Of a stretch of 36,165 nucleotides of DNA, positions 6,163 through 31,077 are shown piece after piece (positions within the stretch are counted from its first letter, which is position 1; each line of letters starts with the position of its first letter). The notes beneath the pieces were generated by a model. The model did not search any database, was not told the DNA's origin, and was given only the letters and a program-made list of their open reading frames with translations. The DNA comes from Gemmatimonadota bacterium. GTDB lineage: Bacteria; JBHIER01; G020348925. The stretch spans positions 4,096,683 through 4,132,847 of the forward strand of contig CP070758.1 of the NCBI GenBank assembly GCA_020348925.1, given 5' to 3'. The translations under genes were made by a program, and so were the position numbers.

Positions 6163-8358
6163 CTACCGGATGACGGCTATCTTTTTCGTCTCGACAAAAT
6201 CCTCGGTTCTGATCGAATAGAGATAAATCCCTGACGCAACCGTCTTTCCGTGCTCATTCTTTCCTTCCCAGTAGCTTTCGCTCTCCTCGAGAATAACCAC
6301 GTTCTGGTACGGGCCTGCTTTTAATTCGCCCAGGTTCTTTTCCCATACCAAATCCCCGGCTATGCTGCGTATGCTCAAAATGACTTCAGCATCTTTGTAA
6401 AGATTGAAGGGGAAATAGGTTTTTTTGTGCTCGGAAATTTTAAAGGGGCTCGGAAAATTCTGCATGACGGCACTCGGAATGGTACCGGCACCGCTTAAAC
6501 CGATCGTGATCTCCTGTGCAGCCGGATCATCACTCGTGAGTGTGACAGAACCGGTGATGACACCGATTTCATTGGGACGAAACGTCACAACAATTGCAAT
6601 GCTCCCCAAGACATCGAGGGTCTGCGGGAGTGACACGTCCTGAATCGTAAATATGCTTTCAGGCATAGCGGACACAGTATAGAGAGTACGAGCGCCTGTC
6701 CCTCGGTTGGAGACGATCATCTCCCAGTCAGCCGTATGGCCCAGGAGCACACTGCCGAAATCGTGCGGGGCGTCGGATACCTCGAGACTTGCACCCAAGT
6801 CCGGATCATATTCCGCATCATAAGTGTACGTATAATTTTGTCCTGATGTCGATACCACACTGGGAATAAGTGCGATCTCAAGATAATCCTTCCAGTTTCT
6901 GGTGGCATGGACACCTCTGTTGAGGTCGTCAAGTGTCATCTCCCTGGCAAAGTGGGTTTCTGAATTCAGATATTCAATAACCATCACCTTCCAATTCGGA
7001 TTGGAGATCCCGGTAAATGAGATCCGCAAGCCGCCGATGGTTTTTCGAGGGGCAAAGCCTATATAGTTGGCGCCCAAGTGGTTCACCAGTCCGGAGCCGG
7101 ACGCAGGATAGGACAGGTGTCTCTCCTCAAATTTCAGCAGAGGATAATCAGCACCTTCTTCATAATATAAGTTCGGATTTGAACGGCTTCCCGTGAAATA
7201 GTTCCATACGGAAAACCCTTGAAATGCCTCCGCCAAGCTGCTACCTCTCTCGGTTAAGGCCGTTTGCATGGCATTCAGGGCATTTGTCGTCACACACCCC
7301 TCCCAGATCTCTCTTATAATATCGACGTGATATTTCTTTGAAAGGAAGATGGCCCAAATGCAACTTGCATATTCGTGTCGTCCATTGAACTCATCGAGGG
7401 ACGCTTCCGGATCGTCAAAGAACCATCGCAGGTAGGCGAAATAATCGTTGACGTCGTCATACATCATATCTTCCATCCATACCGATGAAATCTCCATCCA
7501 GTATCGGTCGGATTCCTCAACGGCATCGTAGCCAAAATGGATGGCATGGAAAAATTCGTGGGCCGCGGTGACCTTCAACCCGTCGAGGGAGAGCTTTCCC
7601 TGATTATAACTCGGATACCAATCATAGTCATTGTCAACGACAATGTAACTCGTGGCACTCCGACCGGTGGTCACATATTCACCCTGCGTGTATCCGAAAA
7701 CCGTCTGCCAGCCAAGATCTTCAATGTAAACGTCGTATCGCGAATCGTCCCCGAAGTCCTCTCCCTGGGGATACCAGTCTCCGTCTTGAGGTGGCGCCTG
7801 GTAGCCCAAGGCATCGACCTCTCGTGTCCAGACATAATCAAAAATAGCGCCACAGTCGTTCACATAATCCGGAACAGTATCCCTCGGATTGACATCAATC
7901 GAATCCGGGGCATCATCGGTCGTTCGAACGTACCAAATTCTGAAGTGACCGCTCGGCGTGTCGTAGAATTCAGGATCTGTTGTATACGCGTGCCCCCAAG
8001 AAGGGTCCTGACCAGCTTCTGTGGGCCGCAGCAAATAGGGCAGAAGTTGAGCCTGGGTCTCCGGACTCAGTACGGACCACTGACTTCCTATTTCCATGAA
8101 AAGCGATGTGGCGCACTTTTCCGGTCCAAGACCTTCAGCCTTAAATCGAGCATCAACATTCTGAGGTCGAAAGATTGAAAAGACTTTCTGAACCAGCGCG
8201 GTTTCATAGTCAATCGTTCCCTCATCGTACGCTTCATCGATGACCGAAAACCGCGTCTCTCCCCGCAGCTCCGCAGAAACCCACCGGATATTGAAAAAAG
8301 AAATGATGAAAATGAACACGACACAAATCTGATGAGATGTAATATGCGATTTTTGCAC
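6163..8358 (-). CDS. Secreted zinc metalloprotease (MXAN_6640-like) with C-terminal sorting-type domain
   Basis: A 731-residue exported protein. A hydrophobic signal peptide occupies about residues 1-29. A metalloprotease-like domain contains AAHEFFHAIHFGY, an HExxH zinc motif (His267, Glu268, His271), followed by acidic WMEI and WMED segments that could supply the third ligand. After the protease region comes an abnormal-spindle/choice-of-anchor-D type Ig domain (about 530-620: DFGSVLLGHTADWEMIVSNRGTG). The C-terminal module (QNFPSPF through ASGIYLYSI and KKIAVIR) resembles FlgD/Por sorting domains. I chose GTG at 8358 because AAGGAGGT stands 4-5 bases before it; the frame extends to 8388 without a better site. 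It is probably a surface or secreted peptidase. Substrate is unknown. Confidence 0.8.
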   Translation of the reverse strand: MQKSHITSHQICVVFIFIISFFNIRWVSAELRGETRFSVIDEAYDEGTIDYETALVQKVFSIFRPQNVDARFKAEGLGPEKCATSLFMEIGSQWSVLSPETQAQLLPYLLRPTEAGQDPSWGHAYTTDPEFYDTPSGHFRIWYVRTTDDAPDSIDVNPRDTVPDYVNDCGAIFDYVWTREVDALGYQAPPQDGDWYPQGEDFGDDSRYDVYIEDLGWQTVFGYTQGEYVTTGRSATSYIVVDNDYDWYPSYNQGKLSLDGLKVTAAHEFFHAIHFGYDAVEESDRYWMEISSVWMEDMMYDDVNDYFAYLRWFFDDPEASLDEFNGRHEYASCIWAIFLSKKYHVDIIREIWEGCVTTNALNAMQTALTERGSSLAEAFQGFSVWNYFTGSRSNPNLYYEEGADYPLLKFEERHLSYPASGSGLVNHLGANYIGFAPRKTIGGLRISFTGISNPNWKVMVIEYLNSETHFAREMTLDDLNRGVHATRNWKDYLEIALIPSVVSTSGQNYTYTYDAEYDPDLGASLEVSDAPHDFGSVLLGHTADWEMIVSNRGTGARTLYTVSAMPESIFTIQDVSLPQTLDVLGSIAIVVTFRPNEIGVITGSVTLTSDDPAAQEITIGLSGAGTIPSAVMQNFPSPFKISEHKKTYFPFNLYKDAEVILSIRSIAGDLVWEKNLGELKAGPYQNVVILEESESYWEGKNEHGKTVASGIYLYSIRTEDFVETKKIAVIR

Positions 8359-8396
8359 ATGGACCTCCTTCGTCGACTCAAGCTGCAATATAATAC

Positions 8397-9511: not shown

Positions 9512-9617
9512 TGTTCTCCTCACCACAACATGTGAATACGAATTCACTCGGCAAAGGGTCAAACAAACACGACATTGTCGTTATGCGAAAAGCCAACACG
9601 AAATCATAAGTTCCTTT

Positions 9618-9647
9618 CAAAGATATATCCAAAAGAGATAAAGTCAA
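9618..9647 (-). promoter_or_regulatory. Candidate promoter of the PHP gene
   Basis: On the minus strand, TTGACT (9647-9642), a 16-base spacer and TATCTT (9625-9620). The -10 extends to TATCTTTG, fitting the Bacteroidetes TAnnTTTG form with TTG 19 bases upstream. The leader would be about 100 bases. Confidence 0.45.
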
Positions 9648-9667
9648 TCGATTTCTACAATTTAAAA

Positions 9668-9708
9668 TGTCCAAAAATAAGGACAAACATTGTCCTAATT
9701 TGAGGACA
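9668..9708. promoter_or_regulatory. Tandem TGTCC-N8-GGACA dyads (enhancer- or operator-like)
   Basis: Two 18-bp dyads, each TGTCC-8 bases-GGACA, at 9668-9685 and 9691-9708, with centres 23 bp apart. The second is part of a longer perfect inverted repeat (ATTGTCCT/AGGACAAT). Exact repetition of the same architecture suggests a dimeric DNA-binding protein. They lie about 180-220 bp upstream of the predicted start of the lipoprotein operon (about 9888) and just upstream of the PHP promoter, so either side could be controlled. The binding protein is not identifiable here. Confidence 0.6.
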
Positions 9709-9862
9709 ATTGGGGTTCAAAGAGTACTGCCCATGGCATGGCACGTGATCGGTTGAAAAGGGGCACAGGCACCTATGGATCATACACAACCTATTGATAT
9801 TCATTATAATATTAAATTCCCGATAATACTTGCCAGTCAAAGGATGCGTCTGTTTCCCCTTG

Positions 9863-9878
9863 TGGTATACAATTTGCG
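9863..9878 (+). promoter_or_regulatory. Sigma-54-like -24/-12 promoter element
   Basis: TGGTATACAATTTGCG has GG (9864-9865) and GC (9876-9877) separated by exactly 10 bases and a full TTGC at the -12 side. It departs from TGGCACG in the middle of the -24 box. Transcription would start near 9888, about 49 bases before the lipoprotein ATG. A sigma-54 promoter needs an enhancer-bound activator, which the dyads at 9668-9708 could bind. Confidence 0.4.
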
Positions 9879-9936
9879 TTGGAGATGAATTGAGACGAAC
9901 GATGAACGAGCATTCTGAAAATAGGAGATTTTGAAC

Positions 9937-10758
9937 ATGAAAAAGAGAACGAAAATGATTCTTCTCATCGGATTCGCGAGCCTCCTGGTCGGATGTGAAG
10001 AGGAACGCCGCTGTTTCCGTCCCGATTACACTCCCCCAGCTGTACCAAGAGGGGTCACGAGCGTGACCGGTAACTGGGAGGTCTATATCTCCTGGTATCC
10101 AAACAACGATCAGGACCTCGCCGGTTATAATGTGTATGTCGGTTCAGAGCCCGAGGGGTATTACACCCTCATCGCCTCGACACCGTCTGCCAATTTTGTT
10201 GACCGCGATGTCCTCAACGGCGAAACATATTACTACGCCGTAAGCGCCTACGATTACAGTGGCAACGAGAGTGAACTGAGTTTCGATCTTGTCTTTGACA
10301 CGCCCAGACCTGAAGGATGGGGCGCACGACTGTGGGACCTTCATATCTTTCCGAACGATGCCGGTTACGACTTCTCCTCTCAGCTGGTGCTGCCGTATAC
10401 AGACAGTCGAGCCGATATATTTTTCGAGATCGACAAGGGGATTCCCTTCATGTGGAGGGCTACGGTCAATACTGACATTCAAGATTTCGGCTATACGACC
10501 TCAATCGACGATGTTGACTACGCTCCCGAATTCGGATGGATCCTCATGGACTGGCTGGAACTTGTCGCTGGGCATACCTACATAGTCTGGACCGAAGATA
10601 ACCACTTTGCGAAGTTTCGTGTCATCCAAGTAGGAAGCAATTTTCTTACGTTCGACTGGGCCTACCAGGTTGATCCGGGTAACCCGGAATTGAAACTCGT
10701 TCGAGAACGCATTCAGAAGCGAAACAGTGAACTGTCCGAAAGTGAAAGCGTGAGGTGA
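9937..10758 (+). CDS. Lipoprotein with a fibronectin type III domain
   Basis: A 273-residue predicted lipoprotein. The N-terminus MKKRTKMILLIGFASLLVGC has a basic start, hydrophobic core and lipobox, with Cys20 as the lipidation site. Residues about 33-118 form a fibronectin type III domain: PPAVPRGVTS, WEVYISWYPN, LAGYNVYVGS and ETYYYAVSAYDYSGNES. The C-terminal half is unrecognised but rich in aromatic beta-strand residues. ATG at 9937 is preferred to the in-frame TTG at 9931 because AGGAG lies nine bases upstream. It is first in a four-gene envelope run; the next ATG is five bases after its stop. Likely a periplasmic or surface scaffold or binding protein. Confidence 0.8.
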   Translation: MKKRTKMILLIGFASLLVGCEEERRCFRPDYTPPAVPRGVTSVTGNWEVYISWYPNNDQDLAGYNVYVGSEPEGYYTLIASTPSANFVDRDVLNGETYYYAVSAYDYSGNESELSFDLVFDTPRPEGWGARLWDLHIFPNDAGYDFSSQLVLPYTDSRADIFFEIDKGIPFMWRATVNTDIQDFGYTTSIDDVDYAPEFGWILMDWLELVAGHTYIVWTEDNHFAKFRVIQVGSNFLTFDWAYQVDPGNPELKLVRERIQKRNSELSESESVR

Positions 10759-10763
10759 TTTCA

Positions 10764-12089
10764 ATGATCCGCTCGATAGGACGCGTATTTCTCCTGGCAA
10801 GTATACTCCTCTCCGGAGTTTCCGCTCTTGAATCACAAGAAGGGGTTACTCATATTCACGAGGGAACGTTTGACCGTTTCGACGTTGATGTGTGGGTGGA
10901 CAGGGGTGAAGCTGCGGTCTATTATCCCGGAGAACGCCTTCGAGTCTATTTCAGACCGACCCATGATTGCTATGTTGCCGTATTCAGCATCGACACCGAA
11001 GGCTCTGTCAGGGTCCTGTATCCCTATGGCTACGATGATGATCCTTTCGTATATGGGGGCAGGACTCGGCGCATACCGGATTCCTGGGACCATCATGATT
11101 TGCTTGTCAACGGTCCTTCGGGTATCGAATACATCGTTGCGGTCGCGAGTGCGCGGCCCATCACCATACCCCATTGGCGGAGGTATTATGATACCCGCTA
11201 CGAACCGAACCCTGACCTTATCGACCGCATTACAGGTGATCCTTACGAGGGCATGTTCCACCTGACGAATCTTATCGTACCCGTCGGGTCTCGCGAGCAG
11301 GAATATATCACAAACAGCACTTACTTTTACATCGAGCAACGAGTATGGTACCCTCGCTATATGTGCTATGATTGCCACCGGCCTCGCCCCGTCTCTTTTC
11401 ATCCGTATGTGGATGTCTGCCTTGGTTTTGAAATCGTCATCGTTGATTATGACTGGTACGATGACTGGGCATACTGGAGACCACACCACCCGCCAGTCCG
11501 CTACCGTCGGGGTTGCTGGAGGGTCAGACGACGGACCCAGACAGCACAGACGACGTATACGAATGAGCGGTATGCACGCCGGCGAGGATTTAAGAACATT
11601 GGATTTTCCAAAACCGATGTGGCACCTGTCGACAGAGAAAAGGTGCGAAGCGATTTGGAACACACGTCAGATATTGAGCGGCGTCGTGGGACAGGTCGTT
11701 CGACAGTACCTCCGAACCCCACGGATACAATGAAGGAAAATATCATAAAAGAACAGAGTCCCTCGAGAGAACGCTCGAAGTATGATGCGCAATACGAACG
11801 CCGCACAGAGCCAACGCTCCCTGAACGAAAACAGGAAAAAACGTCTCCGGAAGATGTGAAAAAGAGAACGGGCAAGACGTCCAAACGGCAACAAAGTTTC
11901 TGGGATAAGATTACTGATTGGAATAAGAAAAGCAAGAGTACACCCAGTGTTTCAAAGCCGAAATCGAAACCGGAAGAAAAGAAATCATCGAAGCCACACA
12001 AGGCAACGCCTTCGAAAAAAAGGAAACCATCCACGAAAAGCTCACCACCCAAGAAGGGTACGTCGAGCAAAGGGAGAAAAAAGAGATGA
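10764..12089 (+). CDS. DUF4384-containing exported protein with long basic tail
   Basis: A 441-residue exported protein. A signal peptide (MIRSIGRVFLLASILLSG...) is followed by a DUF4384-like domain at about residues 30-180; the marks are YYPGERLRVYFRP, DCYVAVFSID and GSVRVLYPYGYDDDP. A Tyr/Trp/Asp-rich segment follows (about 210-245, including VDYDWYDDWAYWRPHH). The final 160 residues are low-complexity Lys/Ser/Pro/Arg-rich sequence, probably disordered. ATG at 10764 has GAGG eight bases upstream. DUF4384 domains occur in surface and signalling proteins, but the function is not known. The charged tail might contact peptidoglycan or acidic polysaccharide, which is only a guess. Confidence 0.75.
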   Translation: MIRSIGRVFLLASILLSGVSALESQEGVTHIHEGTFDRFDVDVWVDRGEAAVYYPGERLRVYFRPTHDCYVAVFSIDTEGSVRVLYPYGYDDDPFVYGGRTRRIPDSWDHHDLLVNGPSGIEYIVAVASARPITIPHWRRYYDTRYEPNPDLIDRITGDPYEGMFHLTNLIVPVGSREQEYITNSTYFYIEQRVWYPRYMCYDCHRPRPVSFHPYVDVCLGFEIVIVDYDWYDDWAYWRPHHPPVRYRRGCWRVRRRTQTAQTTYTNERYARRRGFKNIGFSKTDVAPVDREKVRSDLEHTSDIERRRGTGRSTVPPNPTDTMKENIIKEQSPSRERSKYDAQYERRTEPTLPERKQEKTSPEDVKKRTGKTSKRQQSFWDKITDWNKKSKSTPSVSKPKSKPEEKKSSKPHKATPSKKRKPSTKSSPPKKGTSSKGRKKR

Positions 12090-12160
12090 GCTTTCGCCCT
12101 GTTCACAGTATCGCTCTGTTCCTGACGAACACTGCACGGAATCTGAAAAGGAGGTTGACG

Positions 12161-13402
12161 ATGAAGCCCTGTTTCAAGAAACGGATAATAACCCTGGGAG
12201 TCATTCTATCCCTCACCGGAATATGTCTCTCCGGGGACGGCTATGCTCAAGACGAAGTGCTTATCGGTAAGTTCTTCGGATCGGGGGCCCGTGCCATGGG
12301 TATGGGTGGTGCTTTCCTGGCCGTAGCCGATGATTATTCAGCACTCTATTGGAACCCTGCCGGTCTTGCCCAGATCCCCCGCCTCGAAATCTCCGGCTCC
12401 CTCTCTCACGATCGCATGAGGAACAACGCAACGTATTATGGTTTTGGCATGAAGGACTCTCAATCAAAGACTCGCCTGAATGCTCTCGGTCTGGCCTATC
12501 CCCTACCAACCGTTCGAGGAAGTCTCGTTTTGGGATTGGGTTACAACCGTCTCAGTAGCTTCGACAATCTGTTAACCATAAACTCAAACAGGATGCCCAC
12601 GCAATATGTCGATGCCCTGGAAACCGAATCGGGTGGATTGAGCGCGTGGTCAATCGGCGGGGCCATCGATGTCTCACCGTCGCTCTCACTGGGAGGAGCC
12701 CTTAATATTTGGACGGGAGATGACAGGTATACGTGGGATTATCTGGTCTCCGATACCCAAGATCCTTTTCGGGATTATCGGTATCTTGACACCATCGATG
12801 GTGATTACAGTGGCGTTGGGTTGAAATTCGGAGCTCTTCTCCGCGCCCGAAGATATGCTTCCTTCGGACTGACCGTTACCTCTCCTGTCACCTTTACGGT
12901 CAAAGAATTCTGGACGCAGCAAACCGACACACTGTTTTTCAGGTATTACGATGAGGGGGAGTTTGAATATGAAATCACAACGCCGTACCGCGTCGGTCTG
13001 GGTGGTTCCATCGCTTTCCGCCATCTTACACTTGCCGCCGATGTCGAATACGTGGATTGGACTCAGACCGAATACAAAAGCCCCTACTGGATGATTTCGG
13101 ACAACTGGGTCTTCAAAAATTCCTACCGAGAAGTCTATACGTATCATATGGGTGCTGAATATGCGATTCCCAGATCCGATGTGACCCTGCGGGCCGGGTA
13201 TTACAACGACCCACTCCCCCGCAACGATGGTCGGATTCAAAGAGACAGGGACTATGTAACGGTCGGCGCCGGTTTTCTGGTCGATAATACGGTCAAGATC
13301 GACGTCGCTGTTGTTCACGGTCTTTGGGAAAAAACCACCGACAATCTGACGGAGAAGATTCAGGCCGACAGAGTTTTTCTGTCTATGGCTTACCGATTCT
13401 AA
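12161..13402 (+). CDS. FadL/OmpP1-type, PorV-like outer-membrane protein
   Basis: A 413-residue outer-membrane beta-barrel protein. After a signal peptide (about residues 1-30) comes GSGARAMGMGGAFLAVADDY and YWNPAGLAQIP, the same N-terminal block as in the PorV-like protein at 4982-5995. The barrel region has regular aromatic/glycine strands and ends in SMAYRF, with the terminal Phe of outer-membrane barrels. It resembles the OmpP1/FadL/TodX hydrophobic-compound transporters in length. The frame opens at 12086, but ATG at 12161 has a full AAAGGAGGT five bases upstream. As a member of the sigma-54-like operon it is probably the barrel partner of the neighbouring lipoproteins. Confidence 0.8.
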   Translation: MKPCFKKRIITLGVILSLTGICLSGDGYAQDEVLIGKFFGSGARAMGMGGAFLAVADDYSALYWNPAGLAQIPRLEISGSLSHDRMRNNATYYGFGMKDSQSKTRLNALGLAYPLPTVRGSLVLGLGYNRLSSFDNLLTINSNRMPTQYVDALETESGGLSAWSIGGAIDVSPSLSLGGALNIWTGDDRYTWDYLVSDTQDPFRDYRYLDTIDGDYSGVGLKFGALLRARRYASFGLTVTSPVTFTVKEFWTQQTDTLFFRYYDEGEFEYEITTPYRVGLGGSIAFRHLTLAADVEYVDWTQTEYKSPYWMISDNWVFKNSYREVYTYHMGAEYAIPRSDVTLRAGYYNDPLPRNDGRIQRDRDYVTVGAGFLVDNTVKIDVAVVHGLWEKTTDNLTEKIQADRVFLSMAYRF

Positions 13403-14072: not shown

Positions 14073-14197
14073 CCAGACAGAAAACTCGAACACGAACAGG
14101 AACGTGTGCTCGCGAGGGGTGGTTTTACCCGAAGGGCAGGGCGGTTGACGATAGGCAGCGTCGACCGCTATTTTCATGGCACACACGGAAAAAGGTG

Positions 14198-14226
14198 TTG
14201 ACAATGTTGAAGCGAAGATATATTAT
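14198..14226 (+). promoter_or_regulatory. Sigma-70-type promoter upstream of the DUF4783-like gene
   Basis: TTGACA (14198-14203), a 17-base spacer and TATTAT (14221-14226): one mismatch from the ideal sigma-70 promoter. The leader is about 38 bases. It probably drives the DUF4783-like gene and the histidine kinase gene together. Confidence 0.7.
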
Positions 14227-14270: not shown

Positions 14271-14795
14271 ATGAAAATCACGTACAACCAAATTTGCATC
14301 ATCAGTGTCCTTCTTGCGGTCGGAATTTTCGCAGACACGTTCGGTCGCAACGCCACAGACGTTTCCCCGAGCAAAAAACCTCAAACTCCGAAAGAAGTTT
14401 TCAATGATATCCGGAGAGCATGGCAAGGGGCTGACGTTCAAAAGCTTATGGACTATCTGGGTGATGTCAAAACAATCATCTCTTTCGAAAATGAGGGACT
14501 TGAAAGTGGTTTATACAGTCGAAATCAAGCCTATTATCTATTCGAAAACCTGTTTCAAAATACAAAGACTAACGATTTCACTTTCGTTAAAATTATCGAA
14601 GTTCAAGAAAGAAACACCAATCCCCATGCCTTCGCAAATCGCACATATATGCGATTGCGTGACGGGAGTCAACTCAGCGATCAGATTTACATTGCCCTTA
14701 CCATGGTCAACAACCGATGGTTCATCACACACATCATGTCACTTGAAAAATCCAAGAAACAGCATCCGAGCAGTGGCTCCAATGTGGGTCCATAA
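14271..14795 (+). CDS. DUF4783-like (NTF2-fold) exported protein
   Basis: A 174-residue protein with an N-terminal hydrophobic segment (about residues 7-23) that looks like a signal peptide or anchor. Residues about 40-150 match the pattern of the NTF2-like DUF4783 group: an AWQGADVQKLMDYLGD start, FENEGLESGLYSRNQAYYLFENLF, and an ending in NNRWFITHIMS. Function of this family is unknown to me; many NTF2-fold proteins are small ligand-binding domains. It lies 57 bases before the giant histidine kinase and shares its presumed promoter, so it may act as an exported accessory of that sensor. Confidence 0.6.
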   Translation: MKITYNQICIISVLLAVGIFADTFGRNATDVSPSKKPQTPKEVFNDIRRAWQGADVQKLMDYLGDVKTIISFENEGLESGLYSRNQAYYLFENLFQNTKTNDFTFVKIIEVQERNTNPHAFANRTYMRLRDGSQLSDQIYIALTMVNNRWFITHIMSLEKSKKQHPSSGSNVGP

Positions 14796-14852: not shown

Positions 14853-17800
14853 ATGGAAATATTCACTACGATATTCAACACGCTTACAAAAATCGAAAAA
14901 AATAAAAATCAGAATTGGATTGTGCTCGTCTTCACAGCCACACCTCTGATCCTGTTGAGTATTGATGTTGCTTATCAACACTCTTTTCTGTCAATTGTAA
15001 CGACCATACTTTTACTCATTCTCTACATCTTTCTTCTCTATATGTATTGGAGAAAGAAACGAGTGACTGGCTTTCGTCCTCATCGGTATTTTCTTCCGGT
15101 CATCTTACTTTTACTGGCCGTTCCCTTAGGATCGAAAATACATTTCGAAATCAATTCGTACAACGCAAAAAGAAATTGGGAAAGCCTCTCTCGATCGTCA
15201 CTGCGTAAGGACGCTGAGACAATCCGGAACAGTTTTCAGGATGTGCTTCGTTCAGCGGAACAACTCGCCAGAAATGTTGCGGACCATCCTACATTGAAAA
15301 AAGCACTCGGAGATCCCAATATCGAGAACCGAGCCACCATTTTTCAAATTCTGTCTGATATTGATCCTGAATTTCACGGCGATTACGGTCTTGAAGTATT
15401 TGACAAAAATAGGCAGAGCGTTGCCTGGAGAGGTGTCACGTTTCCACCACAAGAGCTCTTAAAACAGCATATCTCCATTGTCACCGGTCAAATATACACA
15501 ACGCTGTGCGTCGGAGAACATGTGCTCAACACACCGGACGGACAAGTGCTGGGTTCATTCTTTGTCTACAGACCATTACGACTGAACATTCCAATTCAGA
15601 TAAAATCGCTTCGACAATGGAGCTTTGAAAAAGATGTATCCGCGAATATCCGTGCACCATTTCGTCTCGATTTTATTACCACCAGCAGGGATAACATTGA
15701 TTCAGGCGTGTGGCTCCCGTCTGACAATGAAGAGTTTTCCGTAACACTCTCGGATCTGGAGAACAATACCCTCGGGGTGGCTCGTTTATCCAAACCCTCA
15801 TATGAAAGCTACATGCGTGTGCAGCGTACAAAATCCATCAGGATTTCAATCCTTTTTCTCGGACTCATCTTTGTGTACGTTCTCATAAGACTCCTCAGAA
15901 TTCTTTACTTCTCTGTTCTTCAGGAGCGAAACCGACACGAAAAAATCTCTCGAAGGTACTTTGTGACTTTTTGCACAATGACCATTGTGTTATGGACCGT
16001 CCGATATGGACTCCTGTTTATCGGATTTCCTGCGAAGGTCCTTACTCTTTCAATCTTCGACCCGATCCACTACGCGTCTCCCTTCTTCCTTGGCATTTCT
16101 CGCTCCGCCGGTGAGCTTCTGATAACTCTCATTGTTCTCATAGTGAATATCTATCTGGGGTGGAGACTTTTCCTCTTTTCAAAAAAAGGGACCACCGCAC
16201 GAATTCCGTCCAGAATTTTCGCTCTCATTGCTGTACTGCCAATTGTGGCGCTCATCCATTTTCTCTTCGAGACGTACATCTCAGGCATACGGAGTCTTGC
16301 ACACGACTCAACCCTGAGTTTCTTCAACTATCTTGAGCTGTTCTCTTCTCTCCCCCTGCTCGTTACGATGACAAACCTTTTCCTGTTGAGCCTGGCAACT
16401 CTTTCCTTCAGTCTGCTTGGCCTCTGTCTGATCGAACACCTTCTCCGGAATGCAATAGGATCTCAGATATCACGGTGGACCTGGATTTTCTTTGCCTATA
16501 GTCTCGCAGGGGCGCTCTGGCTACTTGCAACAAACCAGCCGACATACCTCATTGAGAGAATGTGTTTTATTCTCGCTCTCCTGATGCTTGCTTCTGTGAC
16601 AGACCGTTTCCTTGTCGCAGCGACTGGAAACAGGTGGGTTTTTTTATTCATACTTACAGGCATTTGTGCCATTCTCTCTTTTCCAATTTTTCGTAAGGAA
16701 ATAATGAAAGAGGAGGATCTTCTTATCCGTCAGAGAACCGTGGAAGCTCTCCAACCAACGGAAAGTTGGATCCGTTTTGTTTTGGAGAACAGTCTGGATT
16801 ACTTTGGCCAGAGCATGAATATTCAAAAATCCCTCGCCGATAAGGAACATATAAATCTTGCGAGTCTGGCGTTCGTAGAGTGGGCGAGAAGTCCTCTCAG
16901 CCATCTGAATTTTGGAAGCTCGATCACTATTTTGGATGAAGCGGGTTCGAATGTCAGTCAATTCGATATTTCTACGCCTGTTGGACTGGAACAAACGGCT
17001 GCATCCGTTCTGCAGGAAATTGAGGACGTGAGCGGAAAATTCATCACGCTGAGCAGAGCTCATATCGAAGGGCAAGAGATAGACCTCTATTCAGGTGCAA
17101 CTCCCGTTTTTGACGAGGGGAAATTGTACGGGGCAGTCATTGTAAACATTCCTGTCGCAAAATCTCCCTGGGGTGCATTGACCAGACTGAGTGGCGTATA
17201 CCCCACACCCCTTCGCCCCTTTGAACCCGGAGGACAGCTCACTCACAAATATGGACCGACCGAATTGGTCGTCGCAATGTACGAGAGAGAAACACTCGTC
17301 GAATCAACCGCTCCGGCTTTTATCAGAGGGCGACGTCCATCCGAAGAAATCCTCAACAAGATGTTCGACGAAAAAATAGAATATTTACGCATTTGTGAAA
17401 AAATCGGTGACAGACAATTCGTAAATTTCTATTTTCCTCAAAAAGGCGAAAGCGTGGTCGGAATGGTCTCAGTCGGTTACGGGAAAGCAGAAATATGGAC
17501 GATCATCCACGACTGTTTGCGCTTGCTCTTTACCTATCTCCTCTTGATCATATCATTGTACGGCTTGTATCGGATCAGCGTTGTCGTTCTTCGAGGCAAC
17601 ATCCGCGGTATCATATCTATTAAACGGTTTCAAGACAAACTGCTCTTGTCCTTTGCGATGCTCATCATATTTCCCATGCTTGTTATGGCTTTTCTGGGCC
17701 GTAATGTTGTTCTCTCTCAGCAGGAGGACTGGATCCGATCTCGTATCGAAGAGGATCTCACGCGTGTTCGTGCGCTTCTTGACGAAGAGACGATCACTGC

Positions 17801-19361
17801 TGCTCGAGAAATTGCATCCAACCCTGAGATCATCGATTTTCTGAACCAACCCGAGGAACACCAACTCACCGCACTTCGTCCAAGGAAGGAAACGATTACG
17901 CTTTGTAACGCTGAGGGTGATGAGCTTTGGAGTAATGCAGCGGGACGAGCAAGCGATGAAATAAGAGATCGGGTGAGATTCACGTATACGCCACGCGTTT
18001 TTTATTCTCATGCACCCTTCCTTGCTATCGGGTCCGTTGTTCCTATCATCGATGCCGAAAAGGAGAGCGAGTATATTGGATCCGTTGAATATCTTCGACC
18101 TATCGACGATGCACTGTGCAAAAGATTGAGCCAAAGAGTGGGACGTGACATTAATGTATATCACAGGGGTATCGAAATCGCCTCGACACGCCCGGAGTTA
18201 TTCCAATCCGAGTTCCTCATGAAAAAACTTCTTGGCGACGCTTTTCTGAACATTGAACTCCTCGATAGAAAATTTTTCTACGCGAAAAGAATAATGGGAA
18301 CGCATCCGTACATCGAAGGCTATCAGCCCCTGAGAGACATTCTGGGCAGAACCGCCGGTGTTCTTTCCATTCCTACCATCTATCAGGAACAAACCGTACA
18401 ACAGGAGACGGCGAAAACAATTTCTGTCATACTGGTTATCTATGGGCTCGTTCTCTGTGCGACCCTCCTCGTCGGACTCATTCTATCACGACGAATCTCC
18501 TCTCCCGTACGAGAGCTGACAAAGGGCACACGGCAGATCGCATCCGGTGATCTCAGTTTTCGAATCGAGATGAAGGCCAAGGACGAACTCGGCGATCTCG
18601 TTGCCTCGTTCAACAAAATGACTGAAGATTTAAGATCGAGTCAGCAGAGGCTCGTGCAGGCGGAAAAAGACGCTGCCTGGCGAGAGATGGCCCGTCAGGT
18701 TGCGCACGAAGTCAAAAACCCACTCACCCCAATGAAACTCTCGATCCAGCATCTCGTACAGGCTTACAAAGATAAGGCAGAACATTTTGAAAAGATTCTC
18801 TCAGAGACAACCACAATGGTTTCGGATCAGATTGATGTTCTCAGAAACATTGCCTCGGAGTTTTCCTTGTTCGCCAGATTACCGAAAAGAAAAGTCCAGG
18901 CGTGTCAAGTTCAAGATATTATGCAGGAAAGTCTGCGCTTGTTCAGTGATAGTTTTACAGGAATCACGCTCGTTACTGAGTACGAAAAGTCTCTCTCTCC
19001 CATCCTGGCCGATCCGGAGGAACTGCAGCGAGTCTTTGTCAATCTGATCCAAAACGCCATCCAAGCAATGCAAGGTGGAGGTACTCTGAACATTGAGATA
19101 TCAACGCAACGTATGCGAGATAAAAATGGAGAACAGCAATACATCATCATCCGCATTATTGATACCGGCTGCGGAATCCCGGACGACCAGAAGGAAAAAC
19201 TCTTCGAACCGAGCTTCTCGACCAAAACCGATGGAACGGGTCTCGGATTGGCCATATGCAAAAGGGTCATTGATGATCTCGGAGGAAACATTGACATTGA
19301 CAGCACCGTCAACGTGGGGACAAAAGTCACCTTGATCCTGCCGGTTCATCGGAACGTCTAA
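14853..19361 (+). CDS. Giant NtrY-like membrane histidine kinase
   Basis: A 1502-residue sensor kinase, about twice the normal size. Three N-terminal membrane segments (about 22-40, 45-67, 79-95) lead into an extracytoplasmic domain (about 96-325). A block of about eight membrane helices (330-612), a second extracytoplasmic domain (615-885), two helices (890-950), a third Cache-like domain (955-1188) and a last helix (1189-1212) follow. The cytoplasmic part has a HAMP domain (1213-1262), an H-box REMARQVAHEVKNPLTP with His1285, N-box NLIQNAIQAM (1397-1406), G1 DTGCGIP (1437-1443) and G2 GTGLGLAI (1461-1468), all intact. The H-box is NtrY type; NtrY partners are often NtrX-like sigma-54 activators. 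No response regulator is in the window. The ribosome-binding site is weak. Confidence 0.9.
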   Translation: MEIFTTIFNTLTKIEKNKNQNWIVLVFTATPLILLSIDVAYQHSFLSIVTTILLLILYIFLLYMYWRKKRVTGFRPHRYFLPVILLLLAVPLGSKIHFEINSYNAKRNWESLSRSSLRKDAETIRNSFQDVLRSAEQLARNVADHPTLKKALGDPNIENRATIFQILSDIDPEFHGDYGLEVFDKNRQSVAWRGVTFPPQELLKQHISIVTGQIYTTLCVGEHVLNTPDGQVLGSFFVYRPLRLNIPIQIKSLRQWSFEKDVSANIRAPFRLDFITTSRDNIDSGVWLPSDNEEFSVTLSDLENNTLGVARLSKPSYESYMRVQRTKSIRISILFLGLIFVYVLIRLLRILYFSVLQERNRHEKISRRYFVTFCTMTIVLWTVRYGLLFIGFPAKVLTLSIFDPIHYASPFFLGISRSAGELLITLIVLIVNIYLGWRLFLFSKKGTTARIPSRIFALIAVLPIVALIHFLFETYISGIRSLAHDSTLSFFNYLELFSSLPLLVTMTNLFLLSLATLSFSLLGLCLIEHLLRNAIGSQISRWTWIFFAYSLAGALWLLATNQPTYLIERMCFILALLMLASVTDRFLVAATGNRWVFLFILTGICAILSFPIFRKEIMKEEDLLIRQRTVEALQPTESWIRFVLENSLDYFGQSMNIQKSLADKEHINLASLAFVEWARSPLSHLNFGSSITILDEAGSNVSQFDISTPVGLEQTAASVLQEIEDVSGKFITLSRAHIEGQEIDLYSGATPVFDEGKLYGAVIVNIPVAKSPWGALTRLSGVYPTPLRPFEPGGQLTHKYGPTELVVAMYERETLVESTAPAFIRGRRPSEEILNKMFDEKIEYLRICEKIGDRQFVNFYFPQKGESVVGMVSVGYGKAEIWTIIHDCLRLLFTYLLLIISLYGLYRISVVVLRGNIRGIISIKRFQDKLLLSFAMLIIFPMLVMAFLGRNVVLSQQEDWIRSRIEEDLTRVRALLDEETITAAREIASNPEIIDFLNQPEEHQLTALRPRKETITLCNAEGDELWSNAAGRASDEIRDRVRFTYTPRVFYSHAPFLAIGSVVPIIDAEKESEYIGSVEYLRPIDDALCKRLSQRVGRDINVYHRGIEIASTRPELFQSEFLMKKLLGDAFLNIELLDRKFFYAKRIMGTHPYIEGYQPLRDILGRTAGVLSIPTIYQEQTVQQETAKTISVILVIYGLVLCATLLVGLILSRRISSPVRELTKGTRQIASGDLSFRIEMKAKDELGDLVASFNKMTEDLRSSQQRLVQAEKDAAWREMARQVAHEVKNPLTPMKLSIQHLVQAYKDKAEHFEKILSETTTMVSDQIDVLRNIASEFSLFARLPKRKVQACQVQDIMQESLRLFSDSFTGITLVTEYEKSLSPILADPEELQRVFVNLIQNAIQAMQGGGTLNIEISTQRMRDKNGEQQYIIIRIIDTGCGIPDDQKEKLFEPSFSTKTDGTGLGLAICKRVIDDLGGNIDIDSTVNVGTKVTLILPVHRNV

Positions 19362-28131: not shown

Positions 28132-31077
28132 TTAGGGAGAAACCTTCATAATGAATTGAATCTTTTCTCTTTCATTGGCTTTGATAGTAATATATTTCGT
28201 TTCCGTCGTGTATCCGTCCTTAATAATCTGTACCTGATGCTGGCCCACGAATAAATCGCGAATAACCTTAGGTGGTGTACCATGCGTTTTTCCGTCAATC
28301 CATATCTCACCAAAAACTTGGTTCCTGTACTCATCGATACAGGTAATATTGAGCGATCCTTTTGCCGTGAAGTCATGCGACACAGATGCCACCTCATTGT
28401 CACCAACGTGCACCCTCCTCTCATGCGGAAAATAGTTCGGATGTGTCAGTCTGAGCTTGTGACTGCCAGCAGTGATCTTCTCGAAAGTTCCCTTTTCCTT
28501 CGTTGTTCCCAAGCTTTTCCCATCGACAAAAACTTCCGCCCAGGGCGTCGCATGAATTTTAAGAGATCCAAAAACGACGGCATCCTCAAGTGATGATAAT
28601 ATGAACTGTTCGGGATGTTCTTGTCCAGGCCGAAACGTGAGCAGTGTTTCGAGAGGGACAAAACCTTCCTTCATGATATTGATAAGATGTTCCCCCGGTT
28701 CTAACGAAAGTGTCAACGGTGTTTGATCTTCGTATTCTAAACTGTCAATCCAAAGGCTGGCACTTTCAGGGACAGTGGAGACGATAAATGTTGACGGGAG
28801 AGGCGACAGACGAGAACGCGAGGTGTCGACAGCACCTTGAGAAATATTGACGCGACCCTCCCAGGGCGTGTACCCAGGAAGATGTAAGGTCAGAGTATGA
28901 GCACCGATTTTCAGTTGTTCAATTTGCACAGGTGTTGTGCCACGAGAAACATCATCGAGTACAACCTGCGCACCGGAGGGATCACTCTCCACTGAAAGTC
29001 CTCCAAATGATTTTGAAAGGGGTAAAATCAGATCAATCTTATCGCTCTCCTTCAAGGAAAACCGATGGACTTCCTCCGCATAATCGGACATTGAAATGTG
29101 AAACGTGTGCTCCCCCAACACGATTTGTTCCTTCGTCATCTTCAAGGGAGTGGTTCCAAGAAATACGCCGGCTTCGGTAACGGAGGCACCGGGGGGTTCT
29201 GTTTTCAGGACCAAGGCGAACGGCGTCATGAGTTCAAAGTAATAGATCGCTGCAGCACCAAGCACAAGAACAAGCATAATGGCCATTAAAACAACGATGC
29301 GTCTTGCTCTCTTACGACGATGGGGTTTTTTCTTGGATGGTGTACCTCTATCACCGGAAAGTTTCTCCTTGGCCAAACGGAGATCCTCGATCATCTCCTC
29401 TCCGGTTTGATAGCGTTTCTCTTTTTCTTTTTGGAGGGCTTTGAGCACGATCCGATCAAGCTCTTCCGGAATACTGGGATTTTTTTGGGAGGGTGCCATA
29501 GGAATTTCATTGACGTGTCGATACATGGTTCCCACGGCCGTGCTCCCCTCGAAAGGCACTTTGCCCACCAGCATCTCATAGAGAACAATTCCCAGAGAGT
29601 AAAGGTCGGCTCTTCCATCCGTCTCTTTTTCCCCTCGTGCTTGCTCGGGGGACATATACTGAGGCGTGCCGATACTCGTTCCGGTCGTCGTTAAACCACC
29701 GCTGTCAGCAGCTCTCGCAATACCGAAATCGAACACTTTCGTCACTTTCAGCTTACTGATCATAATATTGTGCGGTTTTATGTCGCGGTGGATAACACCG
29801 TGCTTGTGGGCAAAATCGAGAGCTTTGCACGTATCCCAAGCAATATCGAGGACTTGTTGAATCGGCAGCGCCCCTTTCTCCTCAATAAGATGTTTAAGGT
29901 TCTTTCCCTCAATGTATTCCATGATAAAATAGTGAATGCCGCTCTGTTGGCCAATCTCGTAAATCTGAATAATGTTGGCATGATTCAATCCCGCGGCAGC
30001 CCTCGCCTCACGTCGAAAACGACCGAGAAACTCTTGATCCCGAGTATACTGTTTTGGGAGTACTTTCATCGCAACGATCCGATTCAGTGACGTCTGAAGG
30101 GCCTTGTAGACGACACCCATACCACCCCGTCCAATTTCTTCGATGATCTGATAGTTCCCCACCGTTTGCCCAATGAGCTCCTCCGGGTCAAGAATTCCAG
30201 TTCCCATTTCTCCCCCACCGGGGGTGATATCATGACCCGGCGTCGTCGGGGTCGGTGTTCCCTCCAGGAGTCTTTTCGCCGCCTTCAAGTCTCCCAGCAT
30301 CTCCTCCATGGTCTGGTATCGATATGCCTTATCCTTCTCCAAAGATTTTTGAAGGATCGTTGCCATAGCCGACGCCAGTACCTGAGGAATGACCTCAACG
30401 GGTTCCGGATCTTCATTCAGCAGTGAATAGAGAATGGCCGCTTCATGCTCCCCTCGAAAAGGGCGATGGCCCGCTATCATCTCATAAAGAACGACCCCCA
30501 AGGAAAACACATCGGTTCGGTAATCAACCTCCAACCCCTGAGCCTGCTCAGGAGACATATACGAAATGGTACCCACAGTGCTTCCTGTTCTGGTAAGACG
30601 GCTCACCCCTTTCAACTTGGCCAGTCCAAAGTCCATAATTTTTACGAGACCGCGAGGAGTCACCATGATGTTATCGGACTTGATATCCCGATGAACGATC
30701 CCCTTTTTATGGGCTTCGGAGAGACCGTCGGCAGTTTGAATAGCGATATCCAACACTCTCTCAATAGGAAGTGAATCTGAACCGAGAACATCACTCAGGG
30801 TCTGACCCTCGACATATTCCATACAGATAAACTCCAGACCTCCCTCCTCGAACATATAATAAATCGTGGCGATATTGGGATGATTAAGGGCTGAGCTGGC
30901 TTGGGCTTCTTGCGCAAGGCGTTTCTTTGCATCTTCATCGGAAGCAAGTTGGGGTGGAAGACATTTCAGGGCAACGGGTCTGTTCAGTTTCGTATCCTCT
31001 GCTTTAAACACCGCTCCCATGCCTCCCTCACCCAGCTTCTCGACTATTTTGGAATGCGATACAACGTTCCCAATCAT
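28132..31077 (-). CDS. Transmembrane protein with two tandem Ser/Thr kinase domains and PEGA repeats
   Basis: A 981-residue protein. Kinase domain 1 (about 8-272) has GEGGMG (16-21), Lys38 (VALK), HRD at 129-131, Asn136, DFG at 149-151 and a YMSPEQ activation-loop end. Kinase domain 2 (about 309-575) has GRGGMG (316-321), Lys338 (VAMK), HRD at 430-432, Asn437 and DFG at 450-452. Both sets of catalytic residues are complete. A basic linker and one membrane helix (593-614) lead to an extracytoplasmic region of about five PEGA-like repeats of 65-75 residues (TEPPGASV, ESDPSGAQVVLDD, VPESASLWIDS, HATPWAEVFVDG, EIWIDGKTHG). PEGA domains are thought to bind envelope surfaces. It starts 33 bases after the NHL/TPR gene and is probably co-transcribed. 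Confidence 0.9.
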   Translation of the reverse strand: MIGNVVSHSKIVEKLGEGGMGAVFKAEDTKLNRPVALKCLPPQLASDEDAKKRLAQEAQASSALNHPNIATIYYMFEEGGLEFICMEYVEGQTLSDVLGSDSLPIERVLDIAIQTADGLSEAHKKGIVHRDIKSDNIMVTPRGLVKIMDFGLAKLKGVSRLTRTGSTVGTISYMSPEQAQGLEVDYRTDVFSLGVVLYEMIAGHRPFRGEHEAAILYSLLNEDPEPVEVIPQVLASAMATILQKSLEKDKAYRYQTMEEMLGDLKAAKRLLEGTPTPTTPGHDITPGGGEMGTGILDPEELIGQTVGNYQIIEEIGRGGMGVVYKALQTSLNRIVAMKVLPKQYTRDQEFLGRFRREARAAAGLNHANIIQIYEIGQQSGIHYFIMEYIEGKNLKHLIEEKGALPIQQVLDIAWDTCKALDFAHKHGVIHRDIKPHNIMISKLKVTKVFDFGIARAADSGGLTTTGTSIGTPQYMSPEQARGEKETDGRADLYSLGIVLYEMLVGKVPFEGSTAVGTMYRHVNEIPMAPSQKNPSIPEELDRIVLKALQKEKEKRYQTGEEMIEDLRLAKEKLSGDRGTPSKKKPHRRKRARRIVVLMAIMLVLVLGAAAIYYFELMTPFALVLKTEPPGASVTEAGVFLGTTPLKMTKEQIVLGEHTFHISMSDYAEEVHRFSLKESDKIDLILPLSKSFGGLSVESDPSGAQVVLDDVSRGTTPVQIEQLKIGAHTLTLHLPGYTPWEGRVNISQGAVDTSRSRLSPLPSTFIVSTVPESASLWIDSLEYEDQTPLTLSLEPGEHLINIMKEGFVPLETLLTFRPGQEHPEQFILSSLEDAVVFGSLKIHATPWAEVFVDGKSLGTTKEKGTFEKITAGSHKLRLTHPNYFPHERRVHVGDNEVASVSHDFTAKGSLNITCIDEYRNQVFGEIWIDGKTHGTPPKVIRDLFVGQHQVQIIKDGYTTETKYITIKANEREKIQFIMKVSP

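Follow-up and report, generated by a model that had tools for sequence, protein, structure and literature searches.

This analysis concerns a 36,165-nucleotide stretch of a Gemmatimonadota bacterium genome (NCBI GenBank assembly GCA_020348925.1, contig CP070758.1, positions 4,096,683 to 4,132,847 of the forward strand), referred to as the window, and a gene within it for a giant NtrY-type sensor histidine kinase (Table 1). We found that this kinase probably belongs to a split three-component system, in which a small DUF4783-like protein encoded directly upstream, the giant NtrY and an unlinked NtrX regulator would work like PlrP-PlrS-PlrR of Bordetella. The case is built on sequence, that is, on the architecture of the kinase, the nearness of its core to NtrY, the recurrence of the architecture, the co-occurrence of NtrX and its coupling to the giant in some relatives, and the linkage of the DUF4783-like gene. 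In the proposed mechanism, the exported DUF4783-like protein would act on at least one Cache domain, outside the inner membrane, and would set the kinase/phosphatase balance of the giant, as proposed for PlrP on PlrS; the kinase would signal to the unlinked NtrX (G000:C1:2474795-2476153, G000 being the window's own genome), and phosphorylated NtrX would then act at promoters.

The last 290 residues of the kinase form a standard HAMP-HisKA-HATPase core, with an H box (HEVKNP, from residue 1285), an N box (from 1397) and G boxes (from 1437 and 1461). HAMP and HATPase_c scored above their Pfam cut-offs and HisKA just below. A PAS domain between HAMP and HisKA is typical of NtrY kinases; the Pfam scan did not find one in the window's kinase, and it was present in two of the seven other giants scanned.

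The sensor half (residues 12-1208) was modelled with AlphaFold from an alignment of 62 relatives (mean pLDDT 79, pTM 0.78). Hydropathy and the AlphaFold helices agreed on 14 membrane helices in the order 3-8-2-1, and three large regions were predicted to lie outside. Given this order, all three fall on the side opposite the kinase domain, and the charge distribution pointed the same way, with 26 lysine or arginine (K/R) residues among the 109 residues of the seven short inside loops and 4 among the 77 of the four outside ones. In structure comparisons, the region 1 model reached Z 12-14 with the sensor domains of LuxQ, KinD and DctB, the best folds being LuxQ (Z 13.8, rmsd 4.7, 180 aligned) and KinD (Z 13.6, rmsd 3.0, 174 aligned). 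Region 2 resembled the WalK receptor (Z 11.4, rmsd 4.2, 133 aligned) and McpH (Z 10.8, rmsd 9.2, 211 aligned), and region 3, which is partly poorly modelled (pLDDT below 50 at model residues 997-1068), gave a single row, the chemoreceptor sensor 8py1_A (Z 10.7, rmsd 3.4, 129 aligned); rows obtained with the whole sensor model mostly concern region 1. By these models, all three outside regions have a predicted Cache-type fold.

Ten ordinary NtrY-type kinases encoded directly upstream of ntrX had four membrane helices (8/10) or two (2/10), and one large loop. The ordinary layout (helices, Cache, helix, HAMP, HisKA, HATPase) is preceded in the giant by about 890 extra residues, so that the protein resembles an NtrY extended at its N-terminus by two additional Cache domains and a block of eight membrane helices. 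As the usual layout of four helices and one outside domain, typical of NtrY though not defining, differs from that of the window's kinase, we call the latter a giant variant. An earlier reading made from the sequence alone (the original prediction) had described about 14 membrane helices and three outside domains, and hydropathy, the AlphaFold model and the K/R bias agreed with it; its remark that this is far more than usual is right in comparison with ordinary NtrY, but the giant form recurs and is not unique.

Using an alignment of eight giants, we scanned named genomes and took the best 80 of at least 594 confirmed candidates. A kinase open reading frame (ORF) bearing the strict motif was present at 78 of these loci and not at the other two; 62 of the 78 frames were uncut and at least 1150 amino acids (aa) long, five were cut by the contig start, and 11 were uncut but shorter (484-1098 aa). 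All 62 long, uncut relatives displayed at least three large loops separating predicted helices, "giant" here being defined by the length filter (at least 1150 aa), which itself favours giants. Most came from Bacteroidota and the rest mainly from Ignavibacteria, Acidobacteria and one Rhodothermus, and giants were also found in genomes of other family codes. Our first giant searches were insensitive, in that G006 and at least six other genomes were missed and found later, and the early counts are therefore lower bounds. The giant triple-sensor architecture, which the original prediction had proposed to look for elsewhere, is a widespread and recurrent variant of NtrY occurring in several phyla. 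It could also be read differently, with sensing done by the eight-helix block, as a module of transporter-like or lipid-sensing kind, and the Cache domains having a structural role: eight helices exceed anchoring needs, and a total of about 9 to 14 helices is retained in the relatives. Cache domains are, however, the usual ligand sites, and we consider such a division of labor improbable.

The catalytic half was placed in kinase-core trees, all of them unrooted. In a tree of 25 giants, 11 ordinary NtrY kinases encoded next to ntrX and 8 other sigma-54-type kinases of the window's genome, all of those 8 stood apart (support 100/100). When all 11 such kinases of the genome were included, cut out by profile, 9 of the 11 were set apart from giants and ordinary NtrY (100/99), and the kinases of loci L134 and L144 were placed weakly. 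The window's kinase branched beside the Ignavibacteria-Rhodothermus-Bacteroidota giants in three trees (99/91, 99/91 and 99/96), which places its host probably close to these groups. As judged from these trees, the giant core is nearer to NtrY than to most other sigma-54-type kinases in the genome; together with the Pfam matches, this agrees with the original assignment of the catalytic half to the NtrY type. The support lies in the branch that sets most of the genome's own kinases apart, not in the giants forming one clade. Several results speak against a simpler picture. The giants formed one group with modest support (94/84 in the 8-kinase tree, 75/82 in the 11-kinase tree), and the latter tree weakens the claim that they are a single clade. 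In the earliest tree they were not one group, three ordinary kinases being unresolved among them; that tree lacked 11 of 18 ordinary loci and 3 of the 11 own kinases, which had not passed our H-box pattern or position filter, and the 8-kinase tree leaves out the same three kinases. The giants also sit between ordinary NtrY and the other kinases. Since the trees are unrooted, only the nearness of the giant core to NtrY, relative to most other such kinases, is safe.

No response regulator lies in the window, as the original prediction had noted: none of the 53 Response_reg matches in the genome falls there, with about 276 kb and 289 kb separating the two closest from the kinase, and neither does any of the 26 Sigma54_activat matches. 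Twenty-four of the latter are full length and 13 of these bear a receiver; coupling was checked for these 13 among the 53 receiver matches, and 11 of them had a kinase in the fetched 6.5-7 kb. The lone NtrX gene, 1.6 Mb from the giant kinase and with no kinase in the fetched stretch, encodes the full set of NtrX features, namely, a receiver, an AAA+ domain with GAFTGA and a C-terminal helix-turn-helix (HTH). The outcome of the receiver search strengthens the claim that this NtrX is the partner.

NtrX also accompanied the giant across genomes. A match to it at E ≤ 1e-60 was present in 28 of 28 giant-kinase genomes (two of which, G098 and G338, carry the giant only in pieces), with best scores of 423-587 bits, the lower of which overlap paralogue scores; 27 of the 28 best matches grouped with the window genome's NtrX in a tree (87/87). 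Among 385 other genomes, in which giant detection is a lower bound, a match at E ≤ 1e-122 occurred in 13/13 with a detected giant versus 114/372 without (Fisher 3.6e-7), and the genomes not seen before the cut-off was set passed in 5/5 cases (Fisher 0.003).

We then compared the coupling of NtrX to kinase genes. No kinase gene was coupled upstream of NtrX in 26 of 27 giant genomes (the window's own, the 20 best-scoring of the 28 and six more), the upstream room at uncoupled giant loci being at least 2.8 kb. At the other eight of the 28, NtrX surroundings were viewed to 1.5 kb, and a kinase was visible in two, in both cases the giant. As a control, the 20 best NtrX matches in genomes without a seen giant were analyzed, and 10 of these were coupled to an ordinary same-strand kinase (-33 to 34 bp). 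In the other 10 control genomes no kinase was visible beside NtrX, from which we predicted that a giant had been missed there, and a renewed search revealed a full giant in five (G060, G154, G202, G333 and G349). In G078, the frame of 892 aa is cut by the contig start and already has six helices and two large loops, which strengthens the NtrX-partner claim. G053, G078, G104 and G198 were judged from frames among the matches listed, and upstream room at the control loci went down to 541 bp in G154 and to 174 bp, up to the contig end, in G198, so that a kinase belonging to the G198 NtrX may lie beyond the contig end. Two long frames, one in G091 and one in G053, were retrieved and proved not to be giants. 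In G219, one of the 10 coupled control genomes, a giant is present as well, and its gene and a second NtrX gene, arranged as in the classic operon, share 4 nt; in Bacteroidales, NtrX adjoins the giant convergently at L088 and L120 and lies three genes upstream at L077. Thus, the co-conserved NtrX-like regulator that the original prediction had proposed to seek has a good candidate, in keeping with its statement that NtrY-type kinases often pair with sigma-54 activators: the lone NtrX is likely the partner of the giant kinase, and we infer phosphotransfer from the one to the other.

A number of observations weigh against this pairing. In G354, NtrX is preceded by a DUF4390 gene and coupled to an ordinary kinase, and in 5 of 20 giant genomes another, divergent kinase lies 0.7-2.3 kb from NtrX. 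Among the controls, the best kinase ORF of G255 and of G198 is cut by the contig end, leaving its class undecidable, and G053 and G104 have a lone NtrX but no giant among the matches listed. The L062 match does not group with NtrX. When the 1e-122 cut-off was set, 8 of the 13 giant genomes had already been scored, and the 385-genome comparison scored four candidates per genome and counted related genomes as independent. The window's genome also holds a coupled pair at L134 (regulator G000:C1:288057-289385 and the adjoining kinase), whose regulator shares 52% identity with the lone NtrX, and G065 has a sigma-54 regulator of a different class (L033) two genes downstream of its giant. An alternative is that the kinase feeds another regulator, NtrX being served elsewhere. 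It could be L121 (sigma-54 receiver gene G000:C1:1401377-1402939), which besides NtrX is alone among the 13 in lacking a full kinase within 7 kb, or another receiver, as just those 13 of the 53 matches were checked for coupling, and the unrelated regulator of G065 fits such a view. Receiver genes and a kinase-like fragment adjoin L121, however, and co-occurrence, uncoupling, G219 and the Bacteroidales cases all favour NtrX, so that we regard another regulator as very improbable and retain NtrX.

Three side observations concern these regulators. The L134 kinase falls between NtrY-type and other kinases in the 11-kinase tree, and the pair is possibly a second NtrYX-like system. The L033 regulator, considered as an NtrX, was rejected as being of a different class, on a long branch in the tree. 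In seven of eight Bacteroidota genomes (L042, labelled Bacteroidota but grouping with Ignavibacteria, was left out), NtrX ends after the AAA+ domain without an HTH (382-410 aa), and in seven of the eight GAFTGA reads ..FTSA (NtrX loci L165-L169, L171 and L172); this NtrX may have lost the role of a DNA-bound sigma-54 activator. The L166 match runs through three stop codons.

The gene directly upstream of the kinase, overlooked in the original prediction, encodes a protein whose N-terminal hydrophobic helix we read as a putative export signal. Its Pfam DUF4783 score was 23.6 bits, just under the cut-off of 24.1, hence "DUF4783-like"; 18 of 20 aligned proteins matched DUF4783 at E ≤ 0.01 (best 1.8e-32). 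Its fold matched the solved DUF4783 proteins 4q53, 4ouq and 4orl with Z 15.8-16.4 over 105-110 residues at 16-18% identity, 4q53 giving Z 16.4 (rmsd 1.9, 108 aligned). A DUF4783-like gene stands directly upstream of the giant, on the same strand and separated from it by -4 to 57 bp, at 15 of 82 giant loci (the window included), which belong to Ignavibacteria and a neighbouring Bacteroidota metagenome-assembled genome, a Rhodothermus, two Acidobacteria and six further genomes. The search profile was built from 19 of the loci then searched; L036, L038, L088, L090, L105, L253 and L255 were not among them. On this linkage, the DUF4783-like protein is a probable exported third component of the giant kinase system, and by analogy with PlrP it may physically contact the Cache domains.

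Alternatively, the giant NtrY-NtrX pair holds and the DUF4783-like gene is a mere bystander, standing next to the kinase through inherited gene order. Evidence in that direction, and against a third component, is that the DUF4783-like gene is on the other strand at 11 of the 82 loci, all Bacteroidota, and that none was found within 3 kb upstream at 56, mostly Bacteroidota and some with little upstream sequence. Moreover, an RlmH-type gene occupies position -1 at 12 loci (SPOUT_MTase in the one member scanned), and in some Bacteroidota the DUF4783-like gene is accompanied by rlmH-like and nadC-like genes, the latter presumably nadC. On the other hand, same-strand adjacency at -4 to 57 bp is kept at the 15 loci, which span several phyla and family codes, whereas more distant upstream genes vary from locus to locus (SecF, dihydroorotase-like, dehydrogenase-like and lipoprotein genes). 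We therefore hold the bystander view to be unlikely and keep the DUF4783-like protein as the third component.

At four loci (L032, L033, L034 and L035 in G237, G065, G134 and G366), a SecF-type gene (SecD_SecF_C) lies one or two genes upstream of the giant, and in three of the four the gene before it has the length of SecD. NtrYX reportedly regulates the cell envelope (PMC7240162); from this precedent and the SecF and lipoprotein-like genes in some neighbourhoods, we infer a cell-envelope role for the system.

The coordinates of all features are compiled in Table 1. A putative terminator-like stem and a sigma-70-like promoter precede the DUF4783-like gene, in a region that holds about twice the expected number of both kinds of match, and suggest that this gene and the kinase are a two-gene unit of their own. 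If they are, the dyads that stand five genes upstream may have nothing to do with the kinase. It was there that the original prediction had placed a sigma-54-like promoter with paired dyads. The dyads are present upstream of the 9931 gene, but the promoter did not stand: with up to two mismatches allowed, the sigma-54 consensus was not found at 9562-9931, and the whole window holds 10 matches versus 13.3 expected by chance. Perfect single copies of the dyad also occur at G000:C1:4055844 and 4685086; a regulon of the motif was rejected, with 17 places in the genome (≤1 mismatch) versus 21 for the reversed control. Homologues of the 9931 gene near a giant include those at L041, L042 and L046. 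Elsewhere in the window, 10755-13402 encodes a DUF4384 protein and then a BamG/PorV/FadL-kind outer-membrane barrel with a 4-nt overlap, between the FN3-type gene and the kinase unit; 6163-8388 encodes a putative metalloprotease of the MXAN_6640 family that contains a choice-of-anchor D domain and whose C-terminal part weakly matches a model of a type IX secretion protein; and 28132-31077 is a large gene, two stretches of which match Stk1/PknB-type Ser/Thr kinase models.

Table 1. Features of the giant kinase, its neighbourhood and its candidate partner (window positions unless prefixed G000:C1)
Feature	Position	Strand	Remarks
Two adjacent dyads TTGTCC-N8-GGACAA, 23 bp apart	9667..9709	+	Upstream of 9931 gene
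FN3-type lipoprotein-like gene	9931..10758	+	Homologues at -2 or -3 of giant kinase at 5 other loci
Terminator-like stem, 11 pairs	14140..14169	+	Consensus match only
Sigma-70-like promoter TTGACA-17-TATTAT, 11/12	14198..14226	+	Consensus match only
DUF4783-like protein, NTF2 fold, N-terminal hydrophobic helix	14271..14795	+	174 aa; 57 bp upstream of kinase
Giant NtrY-type sensor histidine kinase	14853..19361	+	Intact ORF, 1502 aa, no internal stop
Three N-terminal membrane helices	14916..15146	+	aa 22-98; hydropathy and AlphaFold model
Outside region 1, predicted Cache fold	15147..15848	+	aa 99-332; structure comparison of model
Eight-helix membrane block	15849..16691	+	aa 333-613; hydropathy and AlphaFold model
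Outside region 2, predicted Cache fold	16692..17534	+	aa 614-894; structure comparison, few rows
Two membrane helices and turn between	17535..17696	+	aa 895-948; hydropathy and model
Outside region 3, predicted Cache fold	17697..18419	+	aa 949-1189; dCache_3, sCache_3_3 in Pfam below cut-off
Last membrane helix	18420..18476	+	aa 1190-1208
HAMP	18483..18635	+	aa 1211-1261; above Pfam cut-off
HisKA with conserved His1285	18678..18821	+	aa 1276-1323; Pfam 25.2 versus cut-off of 26.9 bits
HATPase_c	19011..19349	+	aa 1387-1499; above Pfam cut-off
Lone NtrX gene	G000:C1:2474795-2476153		452 aa; receiver, AAA+ with GAFTGA, C-terminal HTH

Taken as a whole, the original prediction was right about the NtrY core, the lack of an adjacent regulator, the outside regions and an NtrX elsewhere; its sigma-54 promoter link fell away, and it missed both the DUF4783-like neighbour and how widespread the architecture is. 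Among the papers listed, judged by titles and the beginnings of abstracts, no published description of this giant family was found in the literature searched, outside which most subscription journals lie, and no paper naming DUF4783 was found there despite the solved structures. With the present analysis, a widespread giant sensor gains a probable regulator and a probable exported partner, the DUF4783 family gains a testable role, and the Bacteroidota include genetically tractable laboratory species. In its Discussion, PMC13001219 (2026) considers that exported NtrYX regulators may be widespread, also beyond the proteobacteria, and the system described here would be a concrete candidate.

The same source states that a DUF4390 gene often lies 5' of ntrY-type genes in beta- and gamma-proteobacteria, and that genetic evidence makes PlrP of Bordetella a third component, likely acting through the outside PDC domain of PlrS. 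At the window's kinase, a DUF4783-like gene occupies that 5' place instead, and no DUF4390 match was found in the window's genome. The idea that DUF4783 is a distant DUF4390 was not supported, as the two profiles do not match (hhalign probability 2.7%), which counts against our proposal. Since no profile match joins the families, the DUF4783-like protein would be an independent counterpart of PlrP that works likewise and not a member of its family. A broader reading, which we find nearly but not quite as credible as its opposite, is that the exported DUF4783 protein, the giant triple-Cache NtrY and the split-off NtrX are an undescribed three-component system across Bacteroidota, Ignavibacteria and Acidobacteria, which arose separately from the DUF4390 (PlrP) version, with NtrY kinases repeatedly recruiting an unrelated exported protein from the same 5' position.

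Compared with known systems, the window's kinase shares with DctB/KinD/LuxQ-type Cache sensor kinases the fold of outside region 1; those kinases have one periplasmic sensor region each and other partners. The product of 14271-14795 has the same fold as the DUF4783 proteins of Bacteroides (4q53, 4ouq and 4orl), from which it differs in its low identity and its score just under the Pfam cut-off. With the proteobacterial NtrY-NtrX system the giant kinase system has in common a core nearest ordinary NtrY, the HAMP domain and an NtrX with receiver, AAA+ domain (GAFTGA) and HTH, whereas its 14 helices and three predicted Cache regions (versus four and one), the lack of PAS after HAMP and the unlinked ntrX set it apart. 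Finally, like PlrP-PlrS-PlrR of Bordetella, as portrayed in PMC13001219, it has a small, putatively exported protein whose gene lies immediately 5' of the ntrY-type gene, and an outside PDC/Cache-type sensor, in contrast to which the small protein here has a DUF4783-like NTF2 fold and is not DUF4390, the sensor is giant, and ntrX lies elsewhere.

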